Virus record (IMG/VR): IMGVR_UViG_3300035204_002194
Span: 1-20,549 of that record
DNA: 20,549 bases
Source of the DNA: a virus
Reading direction: 5' to 3' (one strand)
This document shows positions 1,941 through 20,549 of the stretch, one piece after another. Position numbers and translations under genes: made by a program. Each line of letters begins with the position of its first letter. Positions within the stretch are counted from its first letter, which is position 1. The notes beneath the pieces are model-generated. The model saw only the letters and a list, made by a program, of their open reading frames with translations, did not search any database and was not told the DNA's origin.

Positions 1941-2135
1941 AGTCGAAGTTCTTTGTAAGCGGTGAATAGCTTGTGAGGGGATAACCTCATACGAACTCGT
2001 AAGAGACCACAGGCCCGTAAAAAGACCTTAGCCAATTAGACCTAATAAGTCTACTGTTATTTCGGGAAAAAGCGGCAGTTGAGGCTAATGTAAGTAGAAA
2101 TACTTAAGCTAGAAACTTAATCCTCCCAAGAGGAA

Positions 2136-2151
2136 AAAGGATAAGCAGTCA
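2136..2151 (+). repeat. 16-nt direct repeat, copy 1 (inside the ncRNA)
   Basis: AAAGGATAAGCAGTCA, identical to the copy at 2334-2349. In both places it lies just 3' of a hairpin arm and an AGGAAAAA run, so a structural module appears to be duplicated, not just a short string. Confidence 0.8.
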
Positions 2152-2333
2152 ATAAGAAAAGTCCCACCGCATAAAACGAAGAGCTACATATCTTAACAAG
2201 TCAGCCAGCGAAACTAAAAGAGGTTAACGCGAAGGACTGAAGCGGCTTGGTTAAGGATTGCATTTTGGTTCAAGTGGACAGCTATGTTCTTATCTCGAAA
2301 GCCTATCCGGCTTTCTCAACCCATAGGAAAAAT

Positions 2334-2349
2334 AAAGGATAAGCAGTCA
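2334..2349 (+). repeat. 16-nt direct repeat, copy 2 (3' part of the ncRNA)
   Basis: Identical to 2136-2151, 198 nt downstream. Its GATAAG can pair with CTTATC in the loop region at 2289-2294 to form a pseudoknot. Confidence 0.8.
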
Positions 2350-2367
2350 CCTTGAAGATTGTTACAA

Positions 2368-2401: not shown

Positions 2402-3031
2402 ATGGTAAACCAAATAATCGGTGTATCCGGAGTCGCTGGGTCAGGTAAAGATACGTTTTACTCTCTTTTATCTCAATCCGTACCGTGCAAACAATTTTCC
2501 TTAGCCTCCGCGCTTAAGGCGGAGGTAAATAATTGGTGTAAGCTGCACTACAGAATAAATTCAACCGACTGTACGAGAGAAGAAAAGGAAGTTATACGCC
2601 CATTCTTAGTGGCACACGGTACGACAAAAAGAAAACTCACGGAGGGAAGGCATTGGATAGAAACTCTTCATGAAAAAATCATCAAGGACGACTTTAAAGG
2701 GATTAAGGTTATTACAGATATTAGGTATGATGACTACGAAAATGATGAAGTAAGCTGGCTCCGAGATGAACTCAACGGAATATTAGTTCATGTTTCTCAA
2801 TATGAGCTTATATCTAAAAATTCATTCAAACCTTCGCAAGGGCCATTTGATAAGAAATTCTTACCCCCAGCAAACTCAGAGGAAGCTAGAAACGACCCCA
2901 AGGTTAAGAAAAAAAGTGACTTTCAAATCGAATGGGAATTCCTTAAAAGTGGTCAAATCAGTGAATTATCTCCGTATGTGGATAATTTCATCGAATGGCT
3001 ACAGAAAAAAAACGAGGGAAAAAACCATTAG
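2402..3031 (+). CDS. Deoxynucleoside monophosphate kinase (P-loop, T4 gp1-like)
   Basis: Phosphorylates dNMPs to dNDPs for phage DNA synthesis in the cytoplasm. The N-terminus IIGVSGVAGSGKDTF holds the Walker A loop, GVAGSGKD at residues 10-17 with K16; GxxGSGKDT is characteristic of T4 gp1-type dNMP kinases. The segment around residue 84 (HWIETLHEKI) and the strand VITDIRYDDYENDEVSWL resemble the substrate and lid regions, where other members read D-x-R-x-x-x-E. At 209 residues the size is close to that of T4 gp1. The start is fixed by the promoter 6 nt upstream. Its end overlaps the sigma factor gene by 37 nt in another frame. It works with the dCMP deaminase and ribonucleotide reductase of this window. 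Confidence 0.85.
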   Translation: MVNQIIGVSGVAGSGKDTFYSLLSQSVPCKQFSLASALKAEVNNWCKLHYRINSTDCTREEKEVIRPFLVAHGTTKRKLTEGRHWIETLHEKIIKDDFKGIKVITDIRYDDYENDEVSWLRDELNGILVHVSQYELISKNSFKPSQGPFDKKFLPPANSEEARNDPKVKKKSDFQIEWEFLKSGQISELSPYVDNFIEWLQKKNEGKNH

Positions 3032-4071: not shown

Positions 4072-4431
4072 ATGCCACTTTATGAATTCACAAACCCAAA
4101 GACGGGAGAAGTTGTTGAAGTGGTTCAATCAATGCAGGAAGATCACGTATTTTTCGATGAACACGGCAACGAATGGAAAAGAGTATGGCACTCACCTAAC
4201 GCTTCCATAGACACAGAGATAGACGCGTTTTCCGAAAAAGACTGGATGAGGCGTACAGCCAAAAAAGGCATGACCGCAGGAGATATGTTTGACTTATCAT
4301 CAGAACTATGCAATAAAAGGGAAAAGTCCGCTGGACTCGACCCAATTAAACAGAAAGCTGTAACCAACTACGAAAAGAAAACAGGAAAAGCTCACCCAAA
4401 TAAATCAGGAAACAAAAAAAGAACATTATGA
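4072..4431 (+). CDS. FmdB-like small protein without zinc cysteines
   Basis: The frame is open further upstream, but the start is set at 4072 because a terminator and a promoter lie between 4005 and 4061. This gives 119 residues beginning MPLYEFTNPKTGEVVEVVQSM. That beginning is like the FmdB/zinc-ribbon family (MPxYEYxC...G), which occurs in phages as a putative regulator, yet the CxxC pairs of the zinc ribbon are missing here; the only cysteine is distal (LCNKREK). The rest is charged, with a Lys-rich tail (HPNKSGNKKRTL). It overlaps the downstream glycosyltransferase by an ATGA junction. Function is unknown; a structural variant of the FmdB fold is a guess. Confidence 0.65.
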   Translation: MPLYEFTNPKTGEVVEVVQSMQEDHVFFDEHGNEWKRVWHSPNASIDTEIDAFSEKDWMRRTAKKGMTAGDMFDLSSELCNKREKSAGLDPIKQKAVTNYEKKTGKAHPNKSGNKKRTL

Positions 4432-5765
4432 AATTCTCAGTATTCACACCCACTCACGATCTTAAAGATATAGATCAACCATTAGAAAGCCTTAAGGCAC
4501 AGACCTTCAAAGACTTTCAATGGGTTATTTTATTAAACGGCGACGCCCTGAATCACGAACTAGAACTGGAGTCCAAACTATCAGACTCTGAAATAAAATT
4601 TAAAATTATTCGACAAGAACAAGAGACAACACCACCGCCAGAAAACCCAAACCAGCAACAACCCATAGAGAAGAATATAGGATTTCTTAAAAAAAGATGC
4701 TGCGCTGAATCAGAAGGGGAATACTTAGTTGAATTAGACCACGATGACGCTCTGTTGCCCGAATGCCTAGAAGAATTGTCGAAAGCCTTCGACGAGGGGT
4801 ACGATTTCGTTTACTCAGACGACTACTTCCTGACAGAAAGAAAAAACGAATCCGGAGCCATACCCGAATCAAAAGAATGGGATTACGTTGTACCATTCTC
4901 TTCTGATTACGGGTGGAAAACAGAAATGGATGAAGAAGGAAATCAATATCACCCTTCTCATGAACCCTCCGCACTAGCACTCTCTTACATATGGTATGCT
5001 CCCGACCATGTTCGCGCTTGGAAGAAATCCTTCTACGAAAAGATAGGTGGTCACGAAAAAAACCTAGATGTATGTGACGATTACGAGCTGCTATGCAGAA
5101 CATATATAGAAGGTAGTTGTCATAGAATCCCTAAACCTTTATATAAATATTATGCTTTTGATAAGCGCACCTCGGCTAATGAAAAAAATAAAAAAATTCA
5201 AGAACTTACCATGCAAATACATGACGCATACATGCTCGAAATAGCGAGCAAGTGGTCGGATACAAACAACCTCAAAAAAGTTGACCTAGGCTCAGGCTCA
5301 TCAACGTATAAAGACTTCATAGGCGTAGATAAAAAAGAAAACAAAGACAATATAGTGTTTGATTTAAATGAACCCGACTGGCCCTTCGAAGATGGTTCCG
5401 TAGGTGTGTTTAGAGCTTGGAATTCGCTTAACTTCCTTAAAGACCCGATTCACGTAATGAAAGAAGCTTACAGATGCTTAAGTGATTACGGGTGGTTTAT
5501 AATAGATGTACCAAGCACTGATGGCAGGGGAGCCTTTATGGACCCCTTCGAAGTTAGTTACTGGAACTCTAACAGTTTTTGGTATTATACTAAAAAGGAT
5601 TGGTCAAGGTTTATAGACACTCCTGTTAAATTTCAACTCAACAGAATCGACAACTACCACCCTAGTCAGTTTGAAGAATATCATAAGATATTATTTACTA
5701 GAGCTCACTTAGTTAAACTTCCCGAAAAAGGATTCAACGTTCCTATTAACGGAAGGGAAATTTAA
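4428..5765 (+). CDS. Glycosyltransferase family 2 fused to a SAM methyltransferase
   Basis: 445 residues in two domains. Residues 1 to about 245 are a GT-A glycosyltransferase: FSVFTPTHDLKDI is the nucleotide-binding start, a middle segment carries KNIGFLKKRCCAESEGEYL, and DHDDAL (104-109) is the metal/nucleotide-sugar DxD-like motif; VCDDYELLCR (215-224) matches the acceptor/base segment. Residues about 265-445 resemble a class I methyltransferase: KKVDLGSGSS (motif I, 283-292), GVDKKE (motif II acidic turn), FDLNEPDWPFEDGSV and a post-motif loop ('CLSDYGWFIIDVP'). The fusion may glycosylate and methylate phage DNA bases, a capsid protein or a host surface glycan; the sequence does not tell which. 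It overlaps the previous gene by 4 nt. Confidence 0.8.
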   Translation: MKFSVFTPTHDLKDIDQPLESLKAQTFKDFQWVILLNGDALNHELELESKLSDSEIKFKIIRQEQETTPPPENPNQQQPIEKNIGFLKKRCCAESEGEYLVELDHDDALLPECLEELSKAFDEGYDFVYSDDYFLTERKNESGAIPESKEWDYVVPFSSDYGWKTEMDEEGNQYHPSHEPSALALSYIWYAPDHVRAWKKSFYEKIGGHEKNLDVCDDYELLCRTYIEGSCHRIPKPLYKYYAFDKRTSANEKNKKIQELTMQIHDAYMLEIASKWSDTNNLKKVDLGSGSSTYKDFIGVDKKENKDNIVFDLNEPDWPFEDGSVGVFRAWNSLNFLKDPIHVMKEAYRCLSDYGWFIIDVPSTDGRGAFMDPFEVSYWNSNSFWYYTKKDWSRFIDTPVKFQLNRIDNYHPSQFEEYHKILFTRAHLVKLPEKGFNVPINGREI

Positions 5766-9591: not shown

Positions 9592-9804
9592 ATGAAAACA
9601 CTAGTAACATTAACTGTAGGGATGCTGCTTTTTGCGGTGTCGGGTTGTTCGAGTACAATGACGGTTGGTCCTCAAGCTAATGAGGACGCTGTGGTAGGCG
9701 CAAGTCTCAGCACCGAAGGTGCCAGCGTAACACTTCCGTTAATTAAAGGTAGCGTCGGTACAGCTTCGACTACCGCTCCGGCTACTACGAAGAAAAAGAA
9801 GTAA
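9592..9804 (+). CDS. Small lipoprotein
   Basis: 70 residues with a clear type II signal: MKTLVTLTVGMLLFAVSGC, lipobox AVSGC with C19 as the lipidated residue. The mature part is about 50 residues, Gly/Val/Thr-rich, ending in TTAPATTKKKK. Lipidation implies export and attachment to a membrane of a diderm host. Its size would suit an o-spanin, but it lacks the proline-rich linker typical of those; other roles (superinfection exclusion, adsorption) are possible. It starts 6 nt after nrdB and is closed by a terminator, with a signal peptidase gene converging on it. The lipobox itself would need host signal peptidase II, not the phage enzyme. Confidence 0.75.
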   Translation: MKTLVTLTVGMLLFAVSGCSSTMTVGPQANEDAVVGASLSTEGASVTLPLIKGSVGTASTTAPATTKKKK

Positions 9805-9828: not shown

Positions 9829-9854
9829 CCCCCTTTTCGAAGGGGGTTTTTTTT
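9829..9854 (+). terminator. Rho-independent terminator with UUCG loop
   Basis: CCCCCTT (9829-9835), TTCG loop, AAGGGGG (9840-9846), then eight T (9847-9854). It ends the nrdA-nrdB-lipoprotein transcript. The opposite strand has no T tract, so it is not bidirectional. Confidence 0.9.
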
Positions 9855-10353
9855 ATCTTATGATTTTTCCGTGAATTTCAGAAACCTTCACTAATCCGTA
9901 CCAAGAAGCTTCCCTGTTGTCACCTATAACCCAAACGTAACCCTTGGGTACTTTTATCTTATTTCCATTTTCATTAAGCCATAGGGTCTCCTCCTCGTTA
10001 ATATAAAAAATAATAGCTATATTAGAGAAGTCGTCCTTCAATTCGTGATCATTTAAAAATATTTTACCATATTTAATTTGAACAGTATCCCCCTCAACAG
10101 CTATCACCCTTTTAAGCAATTCGTCACGCTTCTCCTCGGGGTCTCTCAGTATTACAACTTCACCCTTTTCCGGCCTAAAGAATCTATAAGTCCACTCATC
10201 CACGAGAAGCCTCTGCCCTTGAATAAATGTAGGCTCCATACTGTTCCCCTCCACCTTAGAGAAACTGTACCCCAGATGAAAAAATACAGAAAAAACCACA
10301 AAAAGGAAAAATATTCTCATGATCCTACAAAATTTCTTGTTGTCTATTTTCAT
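9853..10353 (-). CDS. lepB: Signal peptidase I (phage-encoded)
   Basis: A Ser/Lys leader peptidase that cleaves signal peptides on the outer face of the inner membrane. 166 residues: a single N-terminal membrane anchor (about 11-30, basic residues in front), then VEGNSMEPT with catalytic S38 (box B), RPEKGEVVILRDP (box C), ELLKRVIAVEGDT with the general base K81 (box D), and YVWVIGDNREAS (box E, GDNR 144-147). The usual box E ending SxDSR is replaced by ASWYGLV, as in some short peptidases. The S-K distance (43) and size resemble Bacillus SipS-type enzymes rather than the longer E. coli LepB. It is the last gene of a four-gene minus-strand operon whose other members are membrane proteins. Conjugative TraF-type proteases share these boxes but are less likely here. 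Confidence 0.88.
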   Translation of the reverse strand: MKIDNKKFCRIMRIFFLFVVFSVFFHLGYSFSKVEGNSMEPTFIQGQRLLVDEWTYRFFRPEKGEVVILRDPEEKRDELLKRVIAVEGDTVQIKYGKIFLNDHELKDDFSNIAIIFYINEEETLWLNENGNKIKVPKGYVWVIGDNREASWYGLVKVSEIHGKIIR

Positions 10354-12465: not shown

Positions 12466-13549
12466 AAAACAAGAAAAAACCAACATAGGACCAGTAGGCC
12501 AAATCCAAGCCTACCTCGAACAAAACAAGGGAGATCACTACAACTTTGAGGAAGATAGGGTTTACAGTGTTTCAAGCGGCAGCCTTCTGTTAGACATAGA
12601 ACTAGGCGGAGGGGTGAAACCCGGAGTAGTTAGAGCTACAGGAGTAACTGAGGGTGGAAAAACTTCATGCGCCCTAGCTTTTGCTAGGAATTTTCAAAAG
12701 ATGGAAAACTCAATGGTAATTTATGTCAAAGCCGAAGGGAGACTGTCTGATGATTTAATAGAAAGAATGGGCATAGATACTGATCCCCAAAAATGGCAAA
12801 TCATAAAGTCTAACGTTTACGAAACTGTAATTAATTTGATGAGGCAAATGGTAAAAGATAACCCCACGGACTCACGCTATATGTTCATAATTGATTCCAT
12901 GGATGCACTAATTCCCAAAAGTGACCTAGAGAAAGGATCGGAAGAAGCACTTAAGGTTGGTGCTGGGGCACTACTAAGTTCGGATTTTCTCCGCAGGATG
13001 GCTCTCGCACTAGCTACACGCGGTCACGTTTGCTATATGATTTCGCAAGTAAGAAGTACTATAAAAATTAATCCGTACGAAAAATCCGACCCTCAAGTAA
13101 CTAACGCTTCAGGAGGAAACGCCGCACTTCACTATAGCGATTGGATTTTAGAATTTCAACCAAGGTATGTGAAAGACATAATCTCCACCCAACCAAATGG
13201 AAAGGGTGACGTGCTTGGCCATTGGTGTAAAGTTGTATTCAGAAAAACCCCGAACGAAAAAACAGGAACAACCGTTAGATATCCTATCCGATACGGCAGA
13301 GTAGGAGGTAAAAGTATTTGGGTGGAATACGAAGTGGTAGACATGCTCCTTCAGTGGGAAATGGCCACAGCTAAAGGCGCATGGGTTACGGTATCAGATG
13401 AAATTATTGAAGAAGTCAAAAACGAAACAGGTTTAGAATTTAAAAAGCAACACCAAGGTATGGATAACTTAAGAAAATATTTTGAAGAAAACCCTGATAT
13501 AGGCAAGTACTTATTCCATAAGTTTAGAGAAGCACTAAAGAAAAGCTGA
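12455..13549 (+). CDS. RecA/UvsX-family recombinase
   Basis: 364 residues of the RecA ATPase core. The N-terminus carries SSGSLLLDIELGGGVKPG, the segment that precedes Walker A in RecA. Walker A is GVTEGGKT (63-70, K69), slightly different from the usual GPESSGKT. VKAEGRLSDD (91-100) corresponds to the catalytic AEH segment of RecA, with E94. Walker B is MFIID (143-147). The loop and DNA-binding area includes RRMALALATRGHVCYMISQV and a Gly-rich NASGGNAA. It should form filaments on ssDNA and drive strand exchange in recombination-dependent replication. The C-terminus (about 310-364) is a charged helical domain. UvsX of T4-like phages and bacterial RecA are both possible labels. It is joined to the next gene by a TGATG overlap. 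Confidence 0.88.
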   Translation: MTRKKQEKTNIGPVGQIQAYLEQNKGDHYNFEEDRVYSVSSGSLLLDIELGGGVKPGVVRATGVTEGGKTSCALAFARNFQKMENSMVIYVKAEGRLSDDLIERMGIDTDPQKWQIIKSNVYETVINLMRQMVKDNPTDSRYMFIIDSMDALIPKSDLEKGSEEALKVGAGALLSSDFLRRMALALATRGHVCYMISQVRSTIKINPYEKSDPQVTNASGGNAALHYSDWILEFQPRYVKDIISTQPNGKGDVLGHWCKVVFRKTPNEKTGTTVRYPIRYGRVGGKSIWVEYEVVDMLLQWEMATAKGAWVTVSDEIIEEVKNETGLEFKKQHQGMDNLRKYFEENPDIGKYLFHKFREALKKS

Positions 13550-14154
13550 TGGAACAACTCTTCCTATTTGGTGAGGAGCCTTCCGTTATAATCAATGAAG
13601 GTGGCTTAGACATCTCGGAAGTTCCCGAGATGGACTTCGTATCTAAAAACCCCAAATTTAAAAAATACCAGAGAGGCATAAAAACTAAAAAAATAAAACA
13701 ACTCCGCCAACTCCCGCCAGAAAAATACATAGCGTACCCAACAGGAGCATTACACAGTATAAAAGAATATCATGATCTTGGCCCCATTTTTCCCTACATA
13801 CTTAACGTAAGCAAAGGTACGCACCTTTCGATAAGGGTAAGCAGAAACCAATACCCAGCCTTAGCAATTTCCATAGATAAAGGTATCCAGCTGGACTACA
13901 ATGCTCATGAAATTTTTGCAATAGCATTTGTAGAGAACCCACACCCAGACATACTGTGGATGGTGGACCACAAAAACGATGATAAATTAAATTACCAAGT
14001 AAACAACTTATCTTGGGTAACTCAAGCATACAACCAAAAAAAGGCTGTTGAAGCTTCCAAGAATTCCACAACCAAGATATTGTCAGTTGGGTCCCACCGC
14101 ATTAAATATGAAACAGGAAACGCAGGTGAAGAATCATGCGACTATATGATATAA
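13549..14154 (+). CDS. HNH endonuclease
   Basis: 201 residues. The C-terminal half holds an HNH motif of the kind found in free-standing phage homing nucleases: AHEIFAIAFVENPHPD (H120), then MVDHKNDDKLNYQVNNLSWV with D140-H141 and the N152-N153-L element. The family reads 'vHrlva.aFipnp...vnHidG.k.nN...NLewvt', and this one fits well. The N-terminal half is not recognised and may bind DNA; it contains a basic stretch (GIKTKKIKQLRQLPPEKY). It sits between the recombinase and the helicase, overlapping both neighbours (TGATG with recA, 19 nt with the next nuclease). A role in host DNA degradation or as a homing endonuclease is possible; no intron is seen. Confidence 0.75.
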   Translation: MEQLFLFGEEPSVIINEGGLDISEVPEMDFVSKNPKFKKYQRGIKTKKIKQLRQLPPEKYIAYPTGALHSIKEYHDLGPIFPYILNVSKGTHLSIRVSRNQYPALAISIDKGIQLDYNAHEIFAIAFVENPHPDILWMVDHKNDDKLNYQVNNLSWVTQAYNQKKAVEASKNSTTKILSVGSHRIKYETGNAGEESCDYMI

Positions 14155-14552
14155 ACGGAAGACTCAGGAACAAAAATGTAAACAAGTATTTAATTGACTG
14201 GAATAAAAAATCTAGGTCTAAAATACAATTTACAACAAAAAAATTCTTAGAAACGTACTGGAGAAGGCATATAGTTTTTGAAGAGTTTCCTGTCTACGGC
14301 ACCAGACAGAAGGTTGACATACTAAACGCAACAATAAAGGTCGCCATAGAGGTCCAAGGGAATCAGCATAGTTCTTTTAACAGGTTTTTTCACAATAACT
14401 CTAGAGCTAAGTATCTAGAGTCGATTAAAAGAGATGTCGCAAAAAGCGGATGGCTTCACAAGAATAATTACAAATTGATAGAAGTTGAAGAAAACGAAAT
14501 AAGCCTGTTATCCGAAGAATTTTTCCTAAAAAAATTCGACCTCAAACTTTAG
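14136..14552 (+). CDS. PD-(D/E)XK-type nuclease
   Basis: 138 residues. After a basic N-terminus, HIVFEEFPVYGTRQKVDILN and IKVAIEVQGNQHSS give the core of a PD-(D/E)XK nuclease: E49/E50, D61 and the E72-x-Q74 strand (lysine of the classic motif replaced by Gln, which is common in phage members). H78 and D100 in the following helix (SIKRDVAKSGWLHKNNYKLI) are typical of the DUF559/Vsr-like group. It could resolve branched DNA or cut host DNA; T4 uses gp49, from an unrelated family, for resolution. It overlaps the HNH gene by 19 nt in a different frame. Confidence 0.7.
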   Translation: MRLYDINGRLRNKNVNKYLIDWNKKSRSKIQFTTKKFLETYWRRHIVFEEFPVYGTRQKVDILNATIKVAIEVQGNQHSSFNRFFHNNSRAKYLESIKRDVAKSGWLHKNNYKLIEVEENEISLLSEEFFLKKFDLKL

Positions 14553-17227: not shown

Positions 17228-17294
17228 GACTAGATTAAAGGATTCTGTGAAGTCAATGTTAAAGGGCTTATGGAAAGCACAAAGGAAATTTAAC

Positions 17295-18833
17295 ATGAGA
17301 GATTACGAAGGAAGAAATTATATAAACGGGGAATGGCATAAACCCGATCACGAAACATACTCCAAGATTAATCCGTCAACCGGAAAATATATGGGCATTT
17401 TTCCTAATAGCGAAGCGCCAGTAGTGCACGACGCTTATGTGGCAGCAAGAGAAGCTTTTGACGATTGGAGAAAAGTCAGCCGATTCGTTAGGTCAGATTA
17501 CATGTATCGAGTTTCCCAGATAATAGAAAGAAGAAGAGAGGATTTAGCAAAAGCTATCTCTTTAGAAACTGGAAAAAATTATAATGAAAGTATCGCAGAG
17601 GTTAATGAAGCCTTACATATGGCTCAATTTGCTTTTGGCTCTGGCCGCTATAGTCACGGTGAAGTTGTCTCTTCAGAAATTGAAGAGAAAGATTCTTACA
17701 TGCTTAGAAAACCCAAAGGAGTCATCGCAATTATTTCTCCTTTCAATTTTCCTTTAGCTATCGGAGCCTACTGGTGTGCGGCACCAGCTATAGTGGAAGG
17801 CAATACTGTTATCCTAAAACCGTCTGAAGACGCCCCCTTGTCCACAGAGTTAGCGGTACAAATTTATGAAGAAGCAGGCTTACCTAACGGCGTGGTTAAT
17901 TTGATTCACGGTAAAGGTGAGACAGGAGACGCCTTAATACACGAAGACGTAGACCACATATGTTTTACTGGAAGCGCCGAAGTGGGTCAGCACATAAGAA
18001 AAGTTGCAGCAGAAAGCTGGCACAAAACCACTTCCTGCGAAATGGGCAGTAAATCTGCATGTATTGTTTTTGATGATGTCGAAATTCCATTAGCAATAGA
18101 AGCTACAATAGCAAGTGCCTTTAAGTTATCTGGTCAAAGATGCGTTTCCTCTAGTCGAATCCTAGTGCAAAGAACAATTTATAATGATTTCGCCAGAAGG
18201 TTTGCAGAAAAGGCTTCAGAACTTAAAACCGGTAACCCGTTTAACTCAAACCTAGGCACCTCTGGCTGCCCAGATGGAATGGTATGGGAAGAGTTAACCC
18301 CTAATAACGACATGTATTACGGTCCAATTATTAACGAGCAGGGTTTCGATAAGGTTAGACATTATAATAACTTAGTTCTTCAAGATAGCCGAGTGGAGGT
18401 ACTGTTATCTCCTGTTTACACCGGTGATGGTAAATCACATTACTCTACTCCGATGGTTTATAAGTGTGAATGGCTTGGAACTGACGCTAAATTCTTAAGA
18501 AACGAAGTCTTTGGGCCCCACGTGGCAATTATACCTTTCGACACTTTAAATGATGCAATTAATATTTACAATGATACTGATTACGGTCTTGCGGTGGGTG
18601 TGCTTACGAATGATTTTCGCAAAGCACGGGTACTGCGAGACGAATGCGAAGCGGGAATGATTTACTGGAACGGTGGATCTATAGCTGCTGAATCCCACCT
18701 CGCTTTTGGTGGGGTTAAAAAATCAGGAAACGGATTCCCTAGCGCAGCCAGAACATTTAGGGCGGTGACGCACGAAATAAGCTGGACTGTTAATCACGCA
18801 GACAAACTCACATTCCCTCAGGGGATGAAGTAA
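17295..18833 (+). CDS. Aldehyde dehydrogenase, aminoadipate-semialdehyde (ALDH7)-like
   Basis: Oxidises an aldehyde to a carboxylate with NAD(P)+. All active-site elements are present in 512 residues: N151 (FNFP), K175 (LKPSE), FTGSAEVG (224-231) of the cofactor fold, general base E249 (CEMGSK, usually ELGGK), nucleophile C283 (GQRCVS), and E404/F406 (NEVFGP). The C-terminus HADKLTFPQGMK resembles the LPLAQGIKF end of ALDH7 aminoadipate semialdehyde dehydrogenases. A loop of about 20 residues (320-340) is inserted before YYGP. The start at 17295 is chosen for its Shine-Dalgarno AGGAA 7 nt upstream; GTG 17247 is also in frame. Arginine codons are mainly AGA like the neighbours, so the gene is not newly acquired. 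A dehydrogenase able to make its likely substrate follows three genes later. Ketoglutarate semialdehyde and betaine aldehyde dehydrogenases are alternatives. Confidence 0.88.
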   Translation: MRDYEGRNYINGEWHKPDHETYSKINPSTGKYMGIFPNSEAPVVHDAYVAAREAFDDWRKVSRFVRSDYMYRVSQIIERRREDLAKAISLETGKNYNESIAEVNEALHMAQFAFGSGRYSHGEVVSSEIEEKDSYMLRKPKGVIAIISPFNFPLAIGAYWCAAPAIVEGNTVILKPSEDAPLSTELAVQIYEEAGLPNGVVNLIHGKGETGDALIHEDVDHICFTGSAEVGQHIRKVAAESWHKTTSCEMGSKSACIVFDDVEIPLAIEATIASAFKLSGQRCVSSSRILVQRTIYNDFARRFAEKASELKTGNPFNSNLGTSGCPDGMVWEELTPNNDMYYGPIINEQGFDKVRHYNNLVLQDSRVEVLLSPVYTGDGKSHYSTPMVYKCEWLGTDAKFLRNEVFGPHVAIIPFDTLNDAINIYNDTDYGLAVGVLTNDFRKARVLRDECEAGMIYWNGGSIAAESHLAFGGVKKSGNGFPSAARTFRAVTHEISWTVNHADKLTFPQGMK

Positions 18834-19678: not shown

Positions 19679-20549
19679 ATGGATCAAAAACCCAGAGCAG
19701 TGGTCTGCGGCGTTGGCCACATCGGAAAAGCTATCATTTTCTGTATGACCAAGCTAGGGTTTCACGTAATCGCCTTAGATAGAGACAAGGACGCAGCCAA
19801 CCACTTGCCAGCCCAGTTGTTCGATTTTTTAGTCACCCCTGATCAAGAATCCATAGAAAAAGCCATCTTCCTTTCGCAACCCCATGTAGTAATATCCTCC
19901 CTACCCTACCACCAGACACAACAAGTTGCAGAATACTGCATAAGAAATAAACATAATTACTGCGACCTAGGAGGAAAAGTCAGGGTGTCTCAAAAAATTA
20001 ACCAACTTGCCAACTCAGCCGGAAACCCTTCTGACAGCTTTCATGTATTCACGGATCTAGGGTTGGCTCCGGGGTGGGTTAATATTTTAGCCGAACACGG
20101 AAGAAAACAATTGTACGGAAAATCTAAAGACATAAAAGATGTAAAAATGATGGTAGGAGGCATCCCCGATCAACCCCGAAACCCACCACTGAATTACGTA
20201 ATGACTTGGTCGCTAGATGGATTGATAAATGAATATGAAGATAAGTGTAAGATATTAATTAATGGTCAAGAAAGTTGGGTTGATGGCATGGAGGGCCTCG
20301 AGAAGGTAGATACTAAGTCTCGCGGTGAGCTAGAAGCGTTCTATACTAGCGGTGGAGCATCTCACTCAATAGAATCAATGAAATCTGCTGGCGTACAAAA
20401 TTGTTCCTACAAGACCCTAAGGTACAAAGGCCACAGAGACATAGTACGATTTCTGATAAAGGACTCCAAACTCAGTAAAGAATGTCTAGGGGAGTTGTTT
20501 AAAAACACCGTTGTCCGTGAAGCTAGGGTTTTAGATATAGTTATAATCA
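19679..20549 (+). CDS. Saccharopine / lysine 6-dehydrogenase family protein (partial)
   Basis: The frame opens at 19679 (MDQKPRAVVCGVGHIGKA) and is uninterrupted to the window end, so the C-terminus is missing; 290 residues are visible. The Rossmann motif GVGHIG (11-16) is followed by a basic-to-acidic NAD(P) site (VIALDRDKD). Downstream blocks match the saccharopine dehydrogenase/lysine 6-dehydrogenase family: VVISSLPYH, CDLGGKVRVS, TDLGLAPGWVN, GGIPDQPRNPPLNYVMTWSL followed by DGLINEYED, EAFYTSGGASHS and KTLRYKGHRDIVRFL. Lysine 6-dehydrogenase turns lysine into 2-aminoadipate 6-semialdehyde, the expected substrate of the ALDH at 17295; saccharopine dehydrogenase makes the same product from saccharopine. 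Carboxynorspermidine dehydrogenase is a related alternative. Which activity applies cannot be settled from sequence. Confidence 0.82.
   Translation, partial: MDQKPRAVVCGVGHIGKAIIFCMTKLGFHVIALDRDKDAANHLPAQLFDFLVTPDQESIEKAIFLSQPHVVISSLPYHQTQQVAEYCIRNKHNYCDLGGKVRVSQKINQLANSAGNPSDSFHVFTDLGLAPGWVNILAEHGRKQLYGKSKDIKDVKMMVGGIPDQPRNPPLNYVMTWSLDGLINEYEDKCKILINGQESWVDGMEGLEKVDTKSRGELEAFYTSGGASHSIESMKSAGVQNCSYKTLRYKGHRDIVRFLIKDSKLSKECLGELFKNTVVREARVLDIVII

Follow-up and report, generated by a model that had tools for sequence, protein, structure and literature searches.

A structured RNA class in uncultured phages with a duplicated, lineage-specific strand

The locus and its neighbouring genes

The DNA analysed here, referred to as the window, comprises 20,549 nucleotides of an IMG/VR virus record (IMGVR_UViG_3300035204_002194). 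Between two phage genes it contains a gap (positions 1910 to 2401) without any open reading frame of 40 or more amino acids on either strand, as the first-pass annotation of the sequence had stated. The gene upstream of the gap (1373–1909, + strand) encodes a small protein and precedes the gap in most homologous loci. This protein is conserved and unannotated, and has a lysine-rich tail in the window. Its AlphaFold model (mean pLDDT 85) predicts a winged-helix-like N-terminal half, and Foldseek returned weak matches to winged-helix regulators, none of them below an E-value of 0.001. Downstream of the gap, a deoxynucleoside monophosphate kinase (dNMP kinase) is encoded (2402–3031, + strand), which is replaced by other genes in some relatives.

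Several other genes of the window are of interest in their own right. A family 2 glycosyltransferase is apparently fused to a methyltransferase domain (4428–5765, + strand), and a small lipoprotein-like gene (9592–9804) lies beside a phage-encoded signal peptidase I (9853–10353, − strand; Peptidase_S26, E 1.8e-27). Two overlapping endonuclease-like genes (13549–14154 and 14136–14552, + strand; HNH_3 and homing-endonuclease-like) are located between the genes for a RecA/UvsX-like protein and a DnaB-like helicase. An aldehyde dehydrogenase (17247–18833, + strand; Pfam E 2.5e-123) and a saccharopine-dehydrogenase-like protein (19679–20549, + strand; E 1.1e-20) are possible auxiliary metabolic genes.

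The gap almost certainly encodes a noncoding RNA, extending on the + strand from position 1947 to approximately 2360 (annotated as 1947–2362), for which homologues were obtained with blastn, nhmmer and a covariance model. The 5′ end was placed from the −10 box, and the 3′ boundary (2357) is approximate. A TTGCTT-16-TAGACT promoter proposed earlier for the gap is present as placed: direct reading gives a promoter-like site at 1913–1940 on the + strand (TTGCTT at 1913–1918, a spacer of 16 nt and TAGACT at 1935–1940), a weak match to the consensus that lies under the threshold of the promoter scanner. Nearly all homologues possess a promoter-like pair (one box resembling TTGAC or TTGC and one resembling a −10 element) at the matching place directly upstream of the RNA. 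The strong versions, with up to 11 of 12 consensus positions, include TTGACA-16-TATACT in contig L036 and TTGACA-17-TATACT in contig L018. Since the promoter is sigma-70-like and the RNA gene heads a cluster of nucleotide-metabolism and sigma-factor genes, early expression is plausible, most likely by the sigma-70 RNA polymerase of the host. Folding of the + strand (1947–2357) gave −105.1 kcal/mol (z −2.25; 1 of 100 shuffles as good), and the − strand folded no better than shuffles (z −0.63); these z-scores are weak evidence if taken alone.

Homologues of the RNA were found in approximately 40 other IMG/VR phage contigs and in one contig of a metagenome-assembled genome (MAG), with identities down to about 65% and lengths of about 370 to 430 nt across the family. 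A search of IMG/VR for the adjacent kinase yielded 19 contigs, and the noncoding stretch was present in nearly all of those covering the region. Among near relatives, the full-length RNA is 82–92% identical at the nucleotide level and the kinase proteins 58–78%, the RNA thus being better conserved than the neighbouring proteins. The set was widened with nhmmer, with DNA patterns, with a covariance model (R1) built on the core and with a broader search for the kinase. Among the divergent members are L017, L036, L057, L070, L085, L089, L090, L094, L109, L116, L127, L129, L133, L148, L153 and L155; the deepest group is formed by L018, L104, L106 and L160. In the five phage contigs searched whole, the core was matched once per contig. 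In the GTDB genomes, an exact 22-mer had zero matches, and a gapped pattern gave one true match (L139, binned with a Verrucomicrobia MAG) and three by chance; 24 matches to a badly designed DNA pattern (GAGCTAGGCTNAAAGN{3,6}GCC) are not homologues. In the phage GenBank collection the RNA had no homologue and the neighbouring proteins had only distant relatives, which points to an uncultured phage group without a cultured model phage.

A same-strand gene usually follows the RNA, often the dNMP kinase, as would be expected for a cis-acting, riboswitch-like 5′ leader of the downstream operon. Such a leader should be followed by one kind of gene in the same transcript, but the neighbour varies: a sigma factor is found in L109 and L129, tRNA-Gly in L127, and other genes, including enzymes, in L071, L073, L089, L090 and L133. 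In L018 an intrinsic terminator directly follows the RNA, the sequences of L104, L106 and L160 show equivalent hairpins followed by T-rich tails, and L070 has a promoter-like sequence after the RNA. The varying downstream gene and the L018 terminator make a leader function improbable as a general explanation. On the upstream side, no homologue of the 1373–1909 protein was called in L071 and L073, where the RNA is still present. As judged from its genomic contexts, the RNA is a free-standing gene, separate from the gene downstream.

Fold and compensatory changes

The first-pass annotation had described a large structured RNA with many stems and had suggested a covariation analysis on homologues. 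Compensatory changes in these homologues confirm many of the stems. In an alignment of 27 homologues (MAFFT alignment A3), 96.5% of the cells of the named structure hold standard pairs and 29 of its 44 pairs are changed on both sides; the structure counted was partly taken from related alignments, so that the paired fractions are favourable and more weight belongs to the double changes. The covariation score was 0.41, compared to 0.19 for shuffled and at most 0.11 for slid controls. When the deepest members were added, the core was paired to 97.8% and scored 0.62 (0.22 shuffled, at most 0.15 slid), in an alignment fitted to P5, P5a and P5b and not to pseudoknot b. Our own tree-based (phylogenetic) covariation null is conservative and gave E-values of 0.03–0.3 for the best single pairs; the counts at helix level are stronger.

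Helix P1 (1952–1956/2009–2013) is paired in 94% of cells, with two pairs changed on both sides. P2 connects GCGGUG (1959–1964) with CACCGC (2165–2170), is paired to 98.1% and has four of six pairs changed on both sides. In L018, L104 and L106 the P2 strands are wholly different with pairing kept, for example AAUGGU/ACCAUU in L104 and AAAGGU/ACCUUU in L106, and P9 pairs in these contigs too. The end-closing helix suggested earlier (1957–1964 with 2348–2353) was not supported, as our version of its pairing was found in 32% of cells and 1959–1964 pairs with the P2 partner instead (98%). The P3a hairpin (1973–1979/1985–1990, with a one-base bulge on the 5′ side) has five pairs that vary, is paired to 88% across the diverse set and is missing from some lineages. 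Pseudoknot a joins GCUU (1969–1972) to AAGC (2070–2073), with 96–99% paired and three of four pairs changed on both sides (GCUU/AAGC, GCGC/GCGC, GUGC/GCAC). Pseudoknot b (CCCG 2014–2017/CGGG 2063–2066), already noticed in the single sequence, is paired in 100% of cells, with a CG to UA exchange in L070, L085 and L109.

P5 (2028–2033/2083–2088), P5a (2037–2041/2049–2053) and P5b (2054–2058/2074–2078) are together paired to 94–99%; all pairs of P5 and P5a and two pairs of P5b covary. The variable P6 hairpin (2092–2096/2101–2105), which is outside the separate count, takes forms such as AAGUA/UACUU and GGGUA/UACCC in the alignment. The P8a hairpin (2212–2215/2222–2225) is paired to 92.6% with three covarying pairs. 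P9, a long-range pseudoknot between AGUCC (2160–2164) and GGACU (2234–2238), is paired to 97–99% and occurs as AGUUC/GAACU, AAUCC/GGAUU and AACCC/GGGUU. Pseudoknots a and b cross P5, P9 crosses P2, and P1 crosses both P2 and pseudoknot a. The long-range contacts of pseudoknot a, P9 and P2 were absent from the earlier annotation. Two elements that it had listed are not shared across the family: the pseudoknot 2289–2294/2338–2343 holds in near relatives but retains only one to four pairs in most of the divergent ones and is not a conserved element, and the GAAA-capped hairpin (GAAAGCC/GGCUUUC, 2297–2315) is present but was inserted at the periphery in the nearest relatives alone.

In group I introns the core strands follow the order P7/P3/P8. 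The P2/P9/P8 order of the present RNA resembles the P3/P7/P8 order of these introns, a resemblance of topology only: the 5′ strand of P9 abuts the 3′ strand of P2, and P8a lies between the 3′ strands of P2 and P9. A ribozyme or intron relic is very improbable nonetheless. Rfam gave no match to a group I intron core in the window, in positions 1900–2420 or in the deep homologues L018 and L104, nor, in 1900–2420 at E-values up to 10, any match to models of group I or II introns, RNase P or tmRNA. Unlike a group I intron, the RNA lies between complete open reading frames, with no interrupted gene or splice context and with its own promoter-like site, and it has extra crossing helices, including the pseudoknots that cross P5.

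Two arms with an identical variable strand

Two peripheral arms of the RNA are built alike from a GAAACUUA-like strand, a hairpin, GGAAAA and a repeat, termed y. Arm 1 (2110–2151, + strand) consists of the conserved GAAACUUA, the hairpin, GGAAAA and the copy y1 (2136–2151). Arm 2 (2273–2349, + strand) consists of x2 (GACAGCU, 2277–2283), CUUA, the hairpin, GGAAAA and the copy y2 (2334–2349). In the window, y reads AAAGGATAAGCAGTCA in both copies, which are 198 nt apart. Across homologues y is 12–17 nt long and its copies are separated by about 180–215 nt, a near-constant spacing. Other lineages carry other sequences at the same two places, namely AAAGGCAAGCAGTCAT (L036), GAAAGCTGGGAGTCA (L017), AAAAGACTAGTGGTC (L094), AAAGGAAGGCTGG (L057), AAAGCTAAGAGTCAGT (L089), AAGGACGGTAGC (L073), AAAAGGCTGGCAGACA (L090), AAAGGCTGACAGTCAA (L127), AAAGGCGATGGCTGT (L129) and GGAAGGAAGAAGTTAAA (L153).

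The two copies are 97% identical within one RNA and 54% identical between lineages, and none of 100,000 permutations reached the observed sum. In 15 of 17 RNAs, repeats as long as y were obtained in 0 to 2 of 200 shuffles. Column pairs between y1 and y2 are among the strongest of 79,800 couplings, with an E-value of about 0.3–1 each. In L071 and L109 the copies have drifted apart. By inspection, L116 and the L018 group (the deepest relatives) lack both arms together; the arms thus appear to have been gained or lost jointly.

Direct repeats at near-constant spacing would also suit an element working as DNA, for instance an origin or recombination site with the repeats as DNA sites. This is extremely improbable, as the compensatory changes follow one strand and include pseudoknots and G-U pairs, and the opposite strand folds no better than shuffles.

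Within the RNAs, no site complementary to y fits all lineages. The best is x2, for which 78% of cells pair when it is set against y1 and 75% when it is set against y2; the pairing is poor in L057, L089, L090 and L129, and where y1 and y2 differ (L070, L085, L071 and L109) x2 fits y1 better. The 5′ part of y lacks a consistent partner within the RNA. Directly after the RNA, a GAUUGUU (2356–2362, + strand) is conserved in near relatives and could pair with AGCAGUC of y2 to form a 3′ hairpin; a complement downstream of y2 is likewise present in L153 and L155. A pairing of y with tRNA anticodon arms, or y as a small hairpin, was seen by eye in some lineages only and was dropped.

Elsewhere in the phage contigs searched, y and its complement were absent except for one match with a single mismatch. 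An antisense or decoy RNA acting in trans, whose y strands would both bind a single target in the host, for instance an mRNA, a tRNA or the RNA of a defence system, fits this absence of a complement and the identity of the copies. The position of y after an A-run and its variation by phage lineage would also be expected if hosts differ. Considering the shortness of y and a fold more elaborate than an antisense RNA needs, such a function is unlikely.

Relation to known RNAs and proposed role

Rfam 15 gave no match above chance in the window (E ≤ 5) or in positions 1900–2420 (E ≤ 10), and only chance-level matches at relaxed thresholds for L018 and L104. This agrees with the first-pass annotation, which had recognised no family and had judged tmRNA, RNase P, group I/II introns, GOLLD and ROOL not to fit; none of them was matched. 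Like the present RNA, tmRNA is pseudoknotted and of similar length. Neither tRNA-like ends nor a tag frame were found, with ARAGORN and Rfam both negative at this RNA. Contig L085 encodes a real tmRNA (192–611, − strand; RF00023, 140.5 bits, E 9e-55) next to tRNA-Leu, apart from the present RNA. The Rfam models of RNase P RNA had no match in the window or in 1900–2420. As far as these tools and the open-access literature tell, the RNA is a previously undescribed structured class without a relative in Rfam.

The only comparable work found in the open-access literature, considered here in part, is a cryo-EM study of GOLLD, ROOL and OLE (PMC12286853), large phage or bacterial RNAs forming homo-oligomers. 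According to the part considered, ROOL and GOLLD often occur near tRNA islands and have no established function (PMC12286853). ROOL shares with the present RNA that it is large, multiply pseudoknotted, phage-borne and of no established function (PMC12286853). It differs in length (659 nt in the published example compared to about 410 nt) and in its tRNA islands, the present RNA lying beside nucleotide-metabolism and sigma genes; a twice-copied lineage-specific strand, as in the present RNA, is not reported for ROOL in that part of the study (PMC12286853). The ROOL covariance model of Rfam had no match in 1900–2420 (E 10) or in the window (E 5). GOLLD is likewise phage-encoded with tertiary contacts supported by covariation, but many examples exceed 800 nt and, from the part of the source considered, it shares no demonstrated structural element with the present RNA (PMC12286853). 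The GOLLD model was without a match in the window, 1900–2420, L018 and L104.

A homo-oligomer made of RNA alone, as in GOLLD and ROOL, in which the y strands would pair with the x of a neighbour to give a dimer, ring or cage, draws on several of these similarities. The RNA is phage-encoded and large with several pseudoknots, and has a tRNA neighbour in one contig (L127). Its x2 can pair with y1, with y2 or with the y of another copy, and prefers the distant y1 where the two copies differ. Intermolecular pairings of such RNAs covary as well, as described in the part of the study considered (PMC12286853). We regard this assembly as doubtful, given the clearly smaller size, the missing sequence or Rfam relation to GOLLD and ROOL, the short and incomplete x:y pairing and the deepest members lacking both arms.

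We favour a free-standing, compact RNA gene with one tertiary fold, in which two arms bind a shared partner via the identical y (probability roughly 0.55). The core, consisting of P1, P2, P5-P5a-P5b, P8, P9 and the two pseudoknot contacts, adopts a single defined tertiary fold, and both arms carry the same 12–17-nt strand. That y1 and y2 are kept identical as the sequence changes between lineages suggests that both probably hold the same partner, a component to which we assign odds of slightly less than even. The partner could be x2 of the same molecule, giving a switch, an adjacent RNA of the same kind, giving an oligomer, or some nucleic acid from outside. Recombination between the 12–17-nt repeats could explain their identity by concerted evolution without a shared partner. 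In the favoured reading the RNA may act as a scaffold or an assembling RNA. A scaffold was among the candidate roles named in the first-pass annotation, beside an early regulator and an anti-defence RNA. More tentatively, it might self-assemble or dock via the duplicate strand as a lineage-specific “address”, each phage lineage having its own pairing code.

Few large conserved RNAs are known from phages, and GOLLD and ROOL, which are comparable, are without established function. What is new here, measured against Rfam and the open-access literature, is the RNA class; the loose category of large ornate phage RNAs already exists. The approximately 40 homologues and the covariation-supported fold with several pseudoknots provide material for structure work, and the duplicated variable strand inside the RNA leads to a direct, testable prediction on partner binding.
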